Part shown: positions 419 to 6,247 of the stretch, one piece after another | Layout: every line of letters starts with the position of its first letter | Numbering within the stretch: the stretch's first letter is position 1 | Source of the DNA: Treponema sp. | GTDB taxonomy: Bacteria > Spirochaetota > Spirochaetia > Treponematales > Breznakiellaceae | Length of the DNA stretch: 43,649 nt | Assembly (NCBI GenBank): GCA_009784775.1 | Contig: WQXQ01000006.1 | Coordinates: forward strand, 1 to 43,649 | Direction: 5' to 3' | Program-made: the position numbers and the translations under genes | Notes under the pieces: generated by a model | Database searches by the model: none | What the model was told of the DNA's origin: nothing | What the model saw: the letters and a program-made list of their open reading frames with translations, nothing else

Positions 419-447
419 TTGACTATTTTGGGAATTGGGGGTATTAT
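419..447 (+). promoter_or_regulatory. Predicted sigma70-type promoter TTGACT-N17-TATTAT upstream of the STAND-nuclease gene
   Basis: TTGACT at 419-424, 17-nt spacer, TATTAT at 442-447. Lies outside the left inverted repeat. Confidence 0.65.
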
Positions 448-459
448 TAAGATAGCAAG

Positions 460-507
460 TGTAGGATAACTATTTATTATCTAAAGTATAGATGGTGGTT
501 ACATGAA
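460..507 (+). repeat. 48-bp inverted repeat, left copy (IR-L): leader, RBS-like GGTGG, ATG and the next 2 nt of the STAND-nuclease gene
   Basis: TGTAGGATAACTATTTATTATCTAAAGTATAGATGGTGGTTACATGAA; exact reverse complement at 5430-5477 (48/48 by eye). Confidence 0.97.
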
Positions 508-3500
508 TAATATTTGCGAATACGAGATATTTGAATGGCAATTAAACGACCCCTCAGGTAACATATTTGAAAGAGGGATTTTTCAACTTATCAACAAACA
601 ACTTGCGGAAAAATTTGATGCTGGTGTTAGAATCCATCAAACCCCAAGGGGACCAGATGGTGGTAAAGACATAATCATTCACTCTCCTGTATCACTTTGC
701 ATTTTTAATCAAAAATTTGACTTAGGTAATAAGAATGAAATTATAATTTACGTAGAGTGTAAAACTTCTGATGAAAAACGAATTGAGCTTTCTAAGGTTG
801 CAGGATCTGTTATGAGATCTAAGCAAGATAGAATAGATTACTTCATGTTAGTTTCAAATTCAACATTTGCTCCACAGACTCTTTTTATTTTAAAAACTAA
901 TTGTGAAACTGTAGGTATTAAATTTAAGATTGTTGATCAACAATTACTATTAAAAGCCATTGGAAATAAAACAATTTTCAATAATGTGCCAAACAAATTA
1001 GATTCTAATTTGTATTATGAATATCAAGTTAGCGGAACGCAACTTGAAAACAAAAATGCCTATGAAATATTTTTTTCGTACCGGAATCTTGGAAATGAAG
1101 AACAATTAATAACTCAAAAACTTCTAACTGACAATAACTGGAGAGCCAACGAAATTGAACGTAAATTTTTTGTCAATGTTAACGATATTTATATCAATAA
1201 AACTACTATTATACGCGATTTTACAGATGGCATAGAGGATCTTATTTTTTCTGTAGAAAACTATGGAATCAATGAAAAGCAGGTTGAGATTAAGGGTGTT
1301 AAGGGCGCAGGCACAAGACCTGTATTTGAGCCGCCTTTCTGGGGGACTGATCACAAAAACTGCGAAGATTTTTTAATCGCAAGATTCAAAAACTCAATTG
1401 GCTTTGATTTATGTTGTATTTGGGGTGAAGCTGGCATAGGTAAGACACGGATATTCAATGAAGTTTCTAAAAAACTCAGTGGTCAAAATTTTTATTTTTT
1501 GAATGTGTCAGTTAGATCTAACAATAAGTTTTTAAAAGACATAAAAAAGTTTTTAATTAGCAAAAGTTATTTAACAGAAGATAACAAAAGTGAAACTATA
1601 AATAACATGTTGCTTTCTAGTAAAAATGATTTTATGCGTGCAATAATATTAATAGACGATTGTCATAATATTTTAGACAACACGTTAAACGAATTAAAAT
1701 CCTTGAGCGATACAAACATCCCTGTAACTATTGTTTTGTGTGGTAGAACCGACTATAGTGTAGGAACAACCGACTACTATAGCTTTGTGCAGTATACAGA
1801 AAAAGACGAAAATATAGGATGCTGGCATCTCTCTTCTTTCTCTGACGATGATACTAGAAATTTTATACGCGAGATTATTAAACGCATACCAGAAGTAGCC
1901 CTTGATAGAATATGTAAGATGAGCAACAATAACCCCCTGTTTATTATTCATTTTATAGAGTATCTTTTAGAGTTAAACATGGTTGAGATATACAATAGAA
2001 GTTCCGTTGGCGTTACTAATATAAATGCTTTTAATTCACGTTTATATATTCCTCAAAAATTGGAAGAAATATACAAAAAGCGCATAGAATATTTAAATAA
2101 GAATGAATATGATGCTGAAAATCTATTAAAATATCTATACATTCTATCCATTCTTCAAGATAGGCAAACGAAAGAAATGGCACTAACTTGTCTTGCAGAA
2201 GAAAAATTGAATTTTTTAATGCAAAGAAGATTTCTTAATTTTTCAGAAAATGGGGAAATTGTATTTTCACATGAAAGTTTTGCCGTATATATACGGCAGG
2301 CATTGGAAAATAATGCGATATTAAAAAAGAATTTAGCAAATGATTTTTTTTCTAATTTGAGTTATTTACTAGAACACGTGACTATATCAGAAAGAGGTGT
2401 TCTGGCCCTTTGGGCAGAAAAAAAAGAATTCGCAAAAGAATGTTTTATTAATATAGTAAAACTTATTGAACAAACAACAAATCATTCGGCTTTTAACGTA
2501 GATCATAGCTCGAATAAATATCTTGCGCATATTATGGAATTATATGCTAACGACAAGAATAGTAAAGATTTTTTAATTAAAGTAATTAAGACAAAGATAT
2601 ATACTTCAATACATCACTTTAGTCCAACAATAGCTATTAATGATTGTGATGATATATTAAAATATTTGAAAAAAAACAATATGCTAAAAAATGATAAACG
2701 CTTGAACAATTCTGTAAAACAACAGAAAGCACACGCTATGATAATTGCTGGTTATATGTATAATGCCGAGATTTTGATGAAAGAACTTCTTTCTGAGTGG
2801 TTAGTGGATAAAGGCTCACTTGATAAAGATACTCTTTTTGATTTGTTTGATAGATTTTGCGGTTTATATATAAATTTTAATTGTAAAAATCTTGCCATGA
2901 ATTTTAATGAGATGTCTAAAAAAGAAAAAGTTACTGTAGACAACCGATTAATGGCACTTGTCCATCTTAATCACGCAAAAATTTACTTTCTTAGTGATTT
3001 TGAACGTGCATCTAAAAGTCTTTTAAAAATACAAGAGCTGCTTAAAAACGGCAATTCAAAACGTATTTTATGTTCTAGTAAAATATCTTACTTAGTAATT
3101 GAACTACTTCATAAAAAACGTTGCGATTATGACAATATGATAAAAGAGATTCTTGTGCTTTTAAAAGAAGCGTTCGATGGTAATTATGCACACTCCATCG
3201 CAAGAATATATTTAATTTTGGCGGTATTGCATCTTGTTGCCGAAGAACATATCACAAATTTCAATAAAATAATAGACCTTATTGATAAAGGAATTAACTA
3301 TAGCATAAAGTTCGGTTTTGTACGAGAAATGTGGGAGTTTTATAATCTATTAGCGATTATTCAACTTCGTCAAGGAGTCGATTCAGAAGAAATTAGACAA
3401 ACTTTTGCAACGGCGTATACGTTGCTACAAAACCATGATTACCTAAACTTAGGCATGAGAGATTTGTGTTGTGATAATATTTTGCTGCTTAGTAACATTG

Positions 3501-3730
3501 GATTTTTCTATCAATCAAAAAAAACAGAGAAGGAATTTTATGAATATATGTCAAAAATAACTTTCTTCGAAGGTGTTGTTAATCATAAAAAAAGCGATGA
3601 CTCTCTTCTAAAAAAGTTCTTGAAAGAAGAATATTCAAAAGCAAGGAAAAAACAGCTTCTTTTTACACATAGCCCAAACAATGATTTGCTAAGAGACAGT
3701 GTTACCGGATATTTTATAGCTCTTTCTTAA
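503..3730 (+). CDS. Mrr-like restriction-endonuclease domain + STAND/AAA NTPase + TPR-like C-terminus (Avs-like anti-phage candidate)
   Basis: N-terminus FERGIFQLINKQL...GPDGGKDI...IIYVECK matches the Mrr/PD-(D/E)XK pattern. Walker A GEAGIGKT, Walker B AIILIDD, then NNNPLFI. Long helical-repeat C-terminus. AT-rich relative to flanking genes. Confidence 0.85.
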   Translation: MNNICEYEIFEWQLNDPSGNIFERGIFQLINKQLAEKFDAGVRIHQTPRGPDGGKDIIIHSPVSLCIFNQKFDLGNKNEIIIYVECKTSDEKRIELSKVAGSVMRSKQDRIDYFMLVSNSTFAPQTLFILKTNCETVGIKFKIVDQQLLLKAIGNKTIFNNVPNKLDSNLYYEYQVSGTQLENKNAYEIFFSYRNLGNEEQLITQKLLTDNNWRANEIERKFFVNVNDIYINKTTIIRDFTDGIEDLIFSVENYGINEKQVEIKGVKGAGTRPVFEPPFWGTDHKNCEDFLIARFKNSIGFDLCCIWGEAGIGKTRIFNEVSKKLSGQNFYFLNVSVRSNNKFLKDIKKFLISKSYLTEDNKSETINNMLLSSKNDFMRAIILIDDCHNILDNTLNELKSLSDTNIPVTIVLCGRTDYSVGTTDYYSFVQYTEKDENIGCWHLSSFSDDDTRNFIREIIKRIPEVALDRICKMSNNNPLFIIHFIEYLLELNMVEIYNRSSVGVTNINAFNSRLYIPQKLEEIYKKRIEYLNKNEYDAENLLKYLYILSILQDRQTKEMALTCLAEEKLNFLMQRRFLNFSENGEIVFSHESFAVYIRQALENNAILKKNLANDFFSNLSYLLEHVTISERGVLALWAEKKEFAKECFINIVKLIEQTTNHSAFNVDHSSNKYLAHIMELYANDKNSKDFLIKVIKTKIYTSIHHFSPTIAINDCDDILKYLKKNNMLKNDKRLNNSVKQQKAHAMIIAGYMYNAEILMKELLSEWLVDKGSLDKDTLFDLFDRFCGLYINFNCKNLAMNFNEMSKKEKVTVDNRLMALVHLNHAKIYFLSDFERASKSLLKIQELLKNGNSKRILCSSKISYLVIELLHKKRCDYDNMIKEILVLLKEAFDGNYAHSIARIYLILAVLHLVAEEHITNFNKIIDLIDKGINYSIKFGFVREMWEFYNLLAIIQLRQGVDSEEIRQTFATAYTLLQNHDYLNLGMRDLCCDNILLLSNIGFFYQSKKTEKEFYEYMSKITFFEGVVNHKKSDDSLLKKFLKEEYSKARKKQLLFTHSPNNDLLRDSVTGYFIALS

Positions 3731-3757
3731 GTTGAAAATATAAATAAGGATGAAAAT

Positions 3758-5434
3758 CTAAGTGATGAAATCTTTATCTACAATACAATTTCCTATTATT
3801 AAAGCATCTATTTGTGTTTTTAAAAAAGTTTCTATTGCATCAAAGGGCGACTCAACAATTGGCTCGCCATCTACGTTAAACGATGTATTTACAACAATCG
3901 GAAATCCTATTTTCTCTTCTACTGCTAGAAGAATTTTATGAACGAAAGGTTCTGATTTTACAGACACTGCTTGCACTCGTGCGGTACCGTCAATATGAGT
4001 AATTCCCGGCAACTGACTTTTGAATTCTTCTTTAACCATAGCGGCTACAATCATAAAATTAGACTCAAACTTTAAATCAAAATATTTAAACTGTTCTTCT
4101 GCAATAACTGTGGGTGCAAACGGTCTAAAAGGCTCACGATGTTTAACCTTATAATTTAAAATGTCTTTAATATTTGGATTTTTGGGATTTGCCAGAATAC
4201 TACGATGACATAAAGCACGTGGTCCAATTTCAGTTCGCCCTCTATGCAAAGCTACAATTTTATTTTCAGATATGTATTTTGCTATTTCTTCTGCTAAATG
4301 ATCATCGTGTAATTCCCTGTAATTTAAATTTGCATCTTCTAATGCATTTTTTATTTCTTTATCATTATAAGAAATACCCAAATATGGAAGGTTTATTTTA
4401 AATTTATCTTGTGCTCCAAAATGCTTCCTGTATGCATAATATGCCGAACCTAATGCCTGTCCATCATCTCCAGCAGCTGGAAAAACAAAAAAATTATCTA
4501 AATCAAACTTTTTAATAATTTTAAGATTTAACAAGCAATTCAAAAAAACTCCACCTGATAAAACAAGGTTTTTACATTGGTACAAACATAAAATATCGCA
4601 AATTAGATCTAATATAGTATTTTCAAGCATTAGCTGAATAGTACTAGCTATATTTGCACTATCTTCTCGTATAAATTCTTTATATGTCTTTCCAGACAAT
4701 GTCATTATTGCAAAAATCTCTTCAATTATATCTTTATATTTAAGCGAAAAATCAAGGAAATCGTTCTTCTTATATGCATTGAAATTAAAAAGAGGTTTTC
4801 CGTATCCTGCTAATCCCATAGTTTTTCCTGAACCGCTTCCGCCAAGCCCTAAAAGATTAGTTATTTGACTGAACTTTTTGCCTAAACTCATTTCGAAATT
4901 CTGAACAAATGATGGCATATATGGCAATATATAGTTATGTTCGTCGTTTGCTCTTCCAACGGATGGGTTTTGCAAACGCCTACTTACTACCTCTACTTTA
5001 TTATTTTTGGCAACAAAAAGTGATTCCGCTTCTTGCATACCATTAATATAATCCCCCGCTCCATCGGCCACAAAAACAAGCGCATTGTTAAACCCAGAAG
5101 AGAAAAAAGCAGAATATGCGTGTGCGGTATGATGGTTTGTAAAAAATACAGGTACGTGAATACAATCATAAAACCTTTCAAGCTCTTCTTGATAAAATAT
5201 TTCAATGGAAAACTCTTCTATAGCATGATATGATATTCCAACACAAGAAATATCTTTAAAAGAAAGCTCGAAGTGCTTCAGCAAAGTATTAATGGATTCA
5301 AAAGGGATATTAGAAGAACGTGAATATTTGATTCTATCTAAGCGCTCTTGAGATATTGCACCAATAACAACTCCATCTTTTATTAATGCCGCTCCTCTAT
5401 CATGTCCTATGTGTATACCGAGTGCTATTTTCAT
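3758..5434 (-). CDS. Carbamoyltransferase, NodU/CmcH/TobZ family
   Basis: MKIALGIHIGHDRGAALI...NHHTAHAYSAFFSSGFNNALVFVADGAGD...LSGGVFLNCLLN...GRTEIGPRALCHRSILANP...REPFRPFAPTV...NTSFNVDGEPIVESPFDAI. Confidence 0.93.
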   Translation of the reverse strand: MKIALGIHIGHDRGAALIKDGVVIGAISQERLDRIKYSRSSNIPFESINTLLKHFELSFKDISCVGISYHAIEEFSIEIFYQEELERFYDCIHVPVFFTNHHTAHAYSAFFSSGFNNALVFVADGAGDYINGMQEAESLFVAKNNKVEVVSRRLQNPSVGRANDEHNYILPYMPSFVQNFEMSLGKKFSQITNLLGLGGSGSGKTMGLAGYGKPLFNFNAYKKNDFLDFSLKYKDIIEEIFAIMTLSGKTYKEFIREDSANIASTIQLMLENTILDLICDILCLYQCKNLVLSGGVFLNCLLNLKIIKKFDLDNFFVFPAAGDDGQALGSAYYAYRKHFGAQDKFKINLPYLGISYNDKEIKNALEDANLNYRELHDDHLAEEIAKYISENKIVALHRGRTEIGPRALCHRSILANPKNPNIKDILNYKVKHREPFRPFAPTVIAEEQFKYFDLKFESNFMIVAAMVKEEFKSQLPGITHIDGTARVQAVSVKSEPFVHKILLAVEEKIGFPIVVNTSFNVDGEPIVESPFDAIETFLKTQIDALIIGNCIVDKDFIT

Positions 5435-5477
5435 GTAACCACCATCTATACTTTAGATAATAAATAGTTATCCTACA
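5430..5477 (-). repeat. 48-bp inverted repeat, right copy (IR-R): leader, RBS-like sequence and ATG of the carbamoyltransferase gene
   Basis: Exact reverse complement of 460-507. Confidence 0.97.
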
Positions 5478-5672
5478 TCTATCCTGGACGAAAAATCCAG
5501 TTCAGGTCTTTTTGTTGTGTTCCGAATGAAAGTGGTATTGACTATACGATTGACGGAATGGTTGATGCGAAAATTTTGGTGGTTGTAGCTATTAAGACGA
5601 TGTATGGTAAGCTACAAGCAAGAGTTACAAAATGATTGATCATACAGAGTTAGAAACGAACTGTATCCCTCC

Positions 5673-5780
5673 GGTATTAGCGGAAGTGAGACGATTTCCT
5701 ATCAGTGGAAGCGTGACGGGGCTGTCAATATTGGAACTAACAGTAATATATATAAGGAAGAAATGAAATTAAGGGAGTAA
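5673..5780 (+). pseudogene. Remnant of a bacterial Ig-like/surface-protein repeat domain
   Basis: Frame reads GISGSETISYQWKRDGAVNIGTNSNIYKEEMKLRE*, resembling the TYEWRRWNMARTNFTTAILGTDPTYTV segment of the large lipoprotein at 26.3-31.9 kb. No intact ORF. Confidence 0.45.
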
Positions 5781-6247
5781 AGATTTCAATACCTGATAAC
5801 GCGAAAAAGACAGACACAAATTATACAAAGCTTTTTACGCGTATTTTTTTCCGCCCGTTTTTTCTCGGTTTTCCCGTCTTTTGGCCGTTTAATGTAGTTC
5901 GTAAGGAGCGACTGTTTGCTATAGCCAATATCTAACGATAAATAAATTGAAGGTATTTGTAAAATGTCAAATTATTCATCTTTTATCAGGTACGATTCTG
6001 CATGGTCAGACAAACAGTGAAATATTTTATTGCTGAAAACAAATGATAGTATAAATAAAAAAGTACAAAAAATAATTATAATTAATGAAAGAGCATTAAA
6101 ATTTTTGAAAAAGTTCCATGATTTTACCTGATAAATATCCTTCTACATATTAACCGTTTTCCGGTTCTATTGCACAATTCTGCATTCAGGATAAAAGCCC
6201 GTCTATTTTCGCCAAATACTAGAACCTGCGATTTCACCTAAACCGGG

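Follow-up and report, generated by a model that had tools for sequence, protein, structure and literature searches.

A candidate two-gene inversion switch beside a tyrosine recombinase in Treponema, with related loci in other phyla

Why should two unrelated, convergent genes each begin inside one arm of the same perfect inverted repeat? This arrangement lies near the start of a 43,649-nt stretch of Treponema sp. DNA (GenBank assembly GCA_009784775.1, contig WQXQ01000006.1; hereafter the window), which begins at the contig start (G000:C6:1) of a fragmented genome of 2.4 Mb in 153 contigs. The original prediction, made from this sequence, was that inversion at the repeat exchanges a STAND-nuclease gene and a carbamoyltransferase gene behind an external promoter. 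We compared the locus with relatives of its neighboring tyrosine recombinase and conclude that it is very probably a two-state site-specific inversion switch, in which a fixed promoter would drive the left-hand gene.

The repeat and the genes it bounds

The repeat is exact, as predicted: a repeat search of the window gave two arms of 48 nt, 100% complementary and 4922 nt apart (Table 1). Each arm contains the ATG of one gene (503-505 and 5432-5434), and identity stops where the left arm reads ATGAAT and the right ATGAAA. The two open reading frames (ORFs) are convergent and unrelated, with 27 nt between them, and the recombinase ORF ends 49 bp outside the left arm. An exact inverted repeat of at least 48 bp is expected by chance about 6e-20 times in 7 kb of the window's composition. 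The 48-mer has only 2 copies in the source genome, and the same architecture recurs in many independent assemblies, isolate genomes and one complete chromosome among them. On the strength of that expectation and the recurrent architecture we rejected a chance repeat or assembly artefact, an explanation that the related loci contradict and whose probability we consider negligible.

Table 1. Features of the window at and around the inverted repeat
Feature	Position	Strand	Remarks
Tyrosine recombinase, C-terminal 135 amino acids, cut by contig start	3-410	+	Pfam PF00589 phage integrase family, E 9e-28
Sigma-70-like promoter TTGACT-17-TATTAT	419-447	+	Reads towards left repeat; predicted from sequence
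Left arm of inverted repeat	460-507	+	Core site 465-481, GATAA-CTATTTA-TTATC, plus leader and ATG
STAND NTPase, PD-(D/E)XK-like N-terminus, 1075 amino acids	503-3730	+	Promoter-side gene in assembled orientation
O-carbamoyltransferase, 558 amino acids	3758-5434	-	Distal gene in assembled orientation
Right arm of inverted repeat	5430-5477	-	Core site 5456-5472, minus strand

The recombinase gene predicted beside the left repeat is a clear Pfam match. Its H-x-x-R, H and Tyr catalytic residues are visible, the first Arg lies outside the window, and in an alignment with full-length homologues the fragment is 84% identical to that of the relative G025. The transferase has the carbamoyltransferase N and C domains of Pfam, again as predicted; it falls in the O-carbamoyltransferase (TobZ/NodU) superfamily and resembles TobZ and GdmN. 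For the predicted STAND nuclease, Pfam identified an AAA_22/NB-ARC-like STAND NTPase and called no nuclease domain. Its N-terminus carries a PD-(D/E)XK-like pattern (GPDGGKD...YVECK) that aligns with a Mrr_cat-positive relative, and the nuclease label is putative on the basis of this pattern and the alignment to the Mrr-type protein. No solved structure chain matched the STAND protein by sequence.

Scans of the window with Rfam and for tRNAs gave no matches, and no terminator-like site was found between 300 and 6300. To the right of the distal repeat, no ORF of at least 60 amino acids starts within 5478-6240, which resembles intergenic or degraded sequence.

A recombinase family with inverted site pairs

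With up to 3 mismatches allowed, the first 46 bases of the window repeat had no match among 100 relatives. Because site sequences diverge among relatives, we instead used a full-length homologue of the window recombinase as the query and retrieved 80 named loci. The homologous recombinases (45-86% identity) come from termite-gut Treponema, Clostridia, Paenibacillus and an Aliarcobacter plasmid, and many adjoin an inverted pair of GATAA-N7-TTATC sites that bounds 1.7-6.9 kb. The named same-genus relatives are Treponema metagenome-assembled genomes, several of them from termite-gut series, and the window probably derives from this group. Cultured members of the family include Acetobacterium paludosum DSM 8237, Paenibacillus bouchesdurhonensis, Ruminiclostridium hungatei DSM 14427 and Desulfosporosinus hippei DSM 8344. 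Inverted repeats lie near the recombinase in 23 of 63 loci, compared to 5.7% of control windows, and the motif is present in 22 of these 23. In 28 paired-site loci, of which the window is one, the outer arm approaches AATAAAGGATAA; the two arms of one locus have the same 7-bp spacer, and spacers vary across loci. These likenesses are partly built in because the 28 were picked by their repeats. Arm identity scarcely exceeds the core in many loci (16-27 bp), as would be expected for a recombination site. A start codon inside the repeat is not typical of the family, since most loci share little beyond a 17-30 bp site. At either end of the segment the first gene points inward from its own site in approximately 24 of the 28 loci; L083, L105 and L111 depart from this pattern, and L093 is ambiguous.

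In a tree, the recombinases group separately from Xer-like controls (support 99/100, with some control rows long-branched), and the homologue at L042 scores below the NCBIfam equivalog cut-offs for XerD (237 vs 330) and XerC (236 vs 335). These two results ruled out identity with the XerC/XerD chromosome dimer resolvase. Searches of phage and viral collections returned a few matches, to metagenome scaffolds that lack annotation and to two viral contigs, so carriage of the family by phages finds little support. In two Treponema loci an Eco57I-type restriction-modification gene starts just beyond the distal site (L064, 13672-16062; L063, 4055-7135), a call that comes from Pfam on L064 alone, the two regions being 77% identical in DNA.

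Evidence for inversion and competing explanations

Two Eubacterium-type genomes carry one segment in opposite orientations. The recombinase and flank of L095 and L099 are collinear, and the entire stretch from site to site is flipped, with its breakpoints at the sites and 83-88% identity. Four further sets of homologous cassettes are present in opposite orientations relative to the recombinase, and the window's own gene pair is among them: the gene next to the recombinase encodes the STAND protein in the window and the transferase in L082 and L090. The original prediction had named, as evidence against itself, homologous loci with both genes and no shared repeat. Instead, at all three other loci that hold this gene pair (L082, L090 and contig C147 of the relative G021), an identical repeat pair peculiar to the locus is present. 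Two of the homologous genes are irregular, through possible decay or assembly error: the G021 transferase (L039, 1-200) has ATT in place of the window's ATG, and the STAND homologue at L090 (4442-7715) is split into two overlapping ORFs.

If such segments invert, contigs are expected to break at the sites because reads would support two continuations. Contigs end next to the recombinase in 29 of the 80 loci, compared to 6.4 expected, and contigs of at least 20 kb end within 300 bp of it in 14 of 44 cases, compared to 0.44 expected. The genome of G021 illustrates the pattern. Its contigs C183 and C41 terminate in the same 29-bp site, C141 stops at a repeat end despite a perfect 123-bp overlap with C199, and C147, which holds the homologue of the window segment with its two genes, begins and ends in identical 34-bp repeats.

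A candidate for the predicted external promoter lies on the left only. The window's promoter-like sequence ends 15 nt before the site, nothing similar was found just outside the right arm, and three related Treponema loci have a promoter-like sequence at the equivalent position. Across 27 loci the better side scores 7.39 against 4.96 for shuffles that preserve base composition only, and the other side (2.67) equals its shuffles (2.55), in a side-against-side test that was chosen after the data had been seen, the first version, which assumed the recombinase side for all loci, being non-significant (p 0.15). Treponema loci score better next to the recombinase, and several Clostridia do so on the far side. 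This apparent confinement of promoter signal to one side supports the switch reading.

We considered the possibility that the paired sites chiefly allow two-gene cassettes to be replaced at a fixed locus, either by the recombinase itself or by homologous recombination in the flanks, with inversion as a by-product. Two Ruminococcus loci, L117 and L126, are 93% identical from the site outward (from approximately 9548 on) and hold wholly different cassettes inside; therefore, cassettes are replaced at a fixed locus. Near-identical cassettes also occur in Treponema and Clostridia, where a 256-amino-acid protein is paired with a methyltransferase at 76-81% protein identity (L046, 6418-8163; L075, 9398-11061; L080, 2332-4057), which suggests transfer between phyla. 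However, the sites are inverted rather than direct, the single external promoter and the placement of the start codons suit switching, and L095 and L099 differ by the flipping of one same cassette. We therefore judge it improbable that replacement is the chief function.

Several points weigh against the switch reading. Only one orientation was assembled, and the N-terminal half of the recombinase lies beyond the contig start. The promoter test was selected post hoc, as described above, and L090 has its promoter-like sequence on the far side, so that its STAND gene may be the expressed one, as in the window. Mixed strains with different cassettes could also yield the contig breaks. As for the anti-phage part of the reading, no PADLOC model matched any window protein, the STAND protein included, and domain content is what suggests that role. 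The first two points would also suit a locus that formerly inverted and is now fixed, with a recombinase possibly disrupted in the part beyond the contig start. We consider such a relic unlikely, because the arms are identical over 48 bp yet differ from the arms in related genomes, and because the recombinase is intact over the catalytic half that can be seen. More broadly, arms are identical inside each genome and different between genomes, which points to continuing exchange.

Together, the shared recombinase, inverted site pairs, mostly convergent genes, one-sided promoter signal and occurrence of both orientations at homologous loci favor the predicted switch, and a gene-swap inversion is well supported by these comparisons. 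For the window strain itself, we infer inversion from the homologous loci. In the mechanism we propose, the adjacent tyrosine recombinase, which is Xer-like and of a distinct clade, would recombine the two inverted GATAA-N7-TTATC sites and flip the ~5-kb segment; that the window enzyme acts on the window sites is presumed. From its place after the recombinase gene and ahead of the left site, the fixed promoter would drive whichever gene is on the left, and that gene alone would be expressed. The assembled state would produce the STAND nuclease-like protein, and the flipped state the carbamoyltransferase. Both states retain an intact start because the leader and ATG sit inside the repeat.

Cargo, known systems and significance

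Pairs of a STAND NTPase and an opposing group-transfer enzyme are present in the window, C147 of G021, L068, L082, L089, L090, L093, L104, L105, L107, L112 and L136. STAND proteins with nuclease-like or SIR2 N-termini are among the family's cargo, and the opposing enzymes are carbamoyltransferases, ATP-grasp proteins, glycosyltransferases and radical SAM proteins. Convergent pairs resembling ThsA (SIR2-STALD) and ThsB (TIR) occupy inverted-site segments in L117 (7433-9565) and L145 (6554-8715). A Treponema pair of this kind, G022:C29 with G021:C199 (the latter is L162, taken with the end of L041), was reconstructed across two bins of a single sample. Thoeris is thought to require both ThsA and ThsB, and a one-promoter swap would give only one protein at a time. 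Other loci carry TIR/AAA, pentapeptide/aminotransferase, methyltransferase and radical-SAM genes. On the Aliarcobacter cryaerophilus plasmid pACRY43158 (L143, 9937-13777), a segment adjoining the recombinase and bounded by 19-bp inverted sites holds an 803-amino-acid unknown protein facing an ATP-grasp and a YbaK-type protein. The STAND/enzyme pairing is recurrent, not universal.

The original prediction likened the locus to hsdS/shufflon-type switches. In hsdS inversion, as by PsrA at the Streptococcus pneumoniae cod locus (PMC12324116), an adjacent tyrosine recombinase and inverted repeats likewise select one expressed gene, and to this extent the likeness holds. The analogy is otherwise loose: hsdS systems shuffle parts of homologous genes inside coding regions, whereas the window would swap two whole genes behind one leader. 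We rejected membership in that class because the window ORFs are unrelated and the repeat stops a few bases past the ATG. Orientation also selects among alternative products in the G segment of phage Mu and comparable invertible tail-fibre segments (PMC12529663), but these involve a serine recombinase and phage tail genes, and the window has a tyrosine recombinase with chromosomal cargo. Inversion of the E. coli e14 P segment by PinQ is tied to phage resistance (PMC12529663), a link that the window would share if its domains indicate an anti-phage role; unlike the window, e14 uses a serine recombinase, and its inversion falls inside coding regions and yields chimeric genes.

Phase variation by the gut-bacterial invertible promoters and Clostridioides difficile RecV switches also relies on tyrosine recombinases and inverted repeats (PMC5903667, PMC11892184). 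In those systems the flipping element is the promoter or leader, and the genes keep their place; in the window, the promoter would stay and the genes flip. A Clostridia inverton group (139) is reported to be tied to a tyrosine recombinase (PMC11892184), and overlap with the GATAA-N7-TTATC family is possible. The known anti-phage STAND (Avs) and Thoeris systems resemble the cargo, in which STAND NTPases have nuclease-like or SIR2 N-termini in some loci and ThsA/ThsB-like pairs occur in others. The window STAND protein matched no PADLOC model and no solved chain by sequence, and inversion control would be an addition. Programmed inversion is thus a known kind of control. A literature search, outside which the main inversion catalogues lay, found no description of the nuclease/carbamoyltransferase pairing, and a fixed-promoter swap of two unrelated whole genes with such cargo, site and recombinase family appears undescribed within that same scope.

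The most likely purpose of the switch would be to split a clonal population, in which some cells would hold a costly immune-type sensor in readiness and others would make an alternative enzyme, which perhaps modifies the surface or a small molecule. We extend this only tentatively to the whole family, as a possibility with somewhat less than even prospects: across phyla, the switches may typically render a tailoring enzyme mutually exclusive with an immune protein of the STAND, SIR2 or TIR kind, and a clone would thereby hedge, with internal immunity as one state and altered chemistry as the other. If this is true, immune-type sensors and metabolic or surface-modifying enzymes exclude each other genetically, in a reversible and heritable way, through a single recombinase and site family present in several phyla, and the hedging of immunity costs by DNA inversion becomes directly testable. 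The signature recombinase and GATAA-N7-TTATC pair also offer a search handle for uncharacterised defence-type genes and their partners. The same device with other gene pairs in other bacteria suggests a general way to keep two alternative genes in one population.
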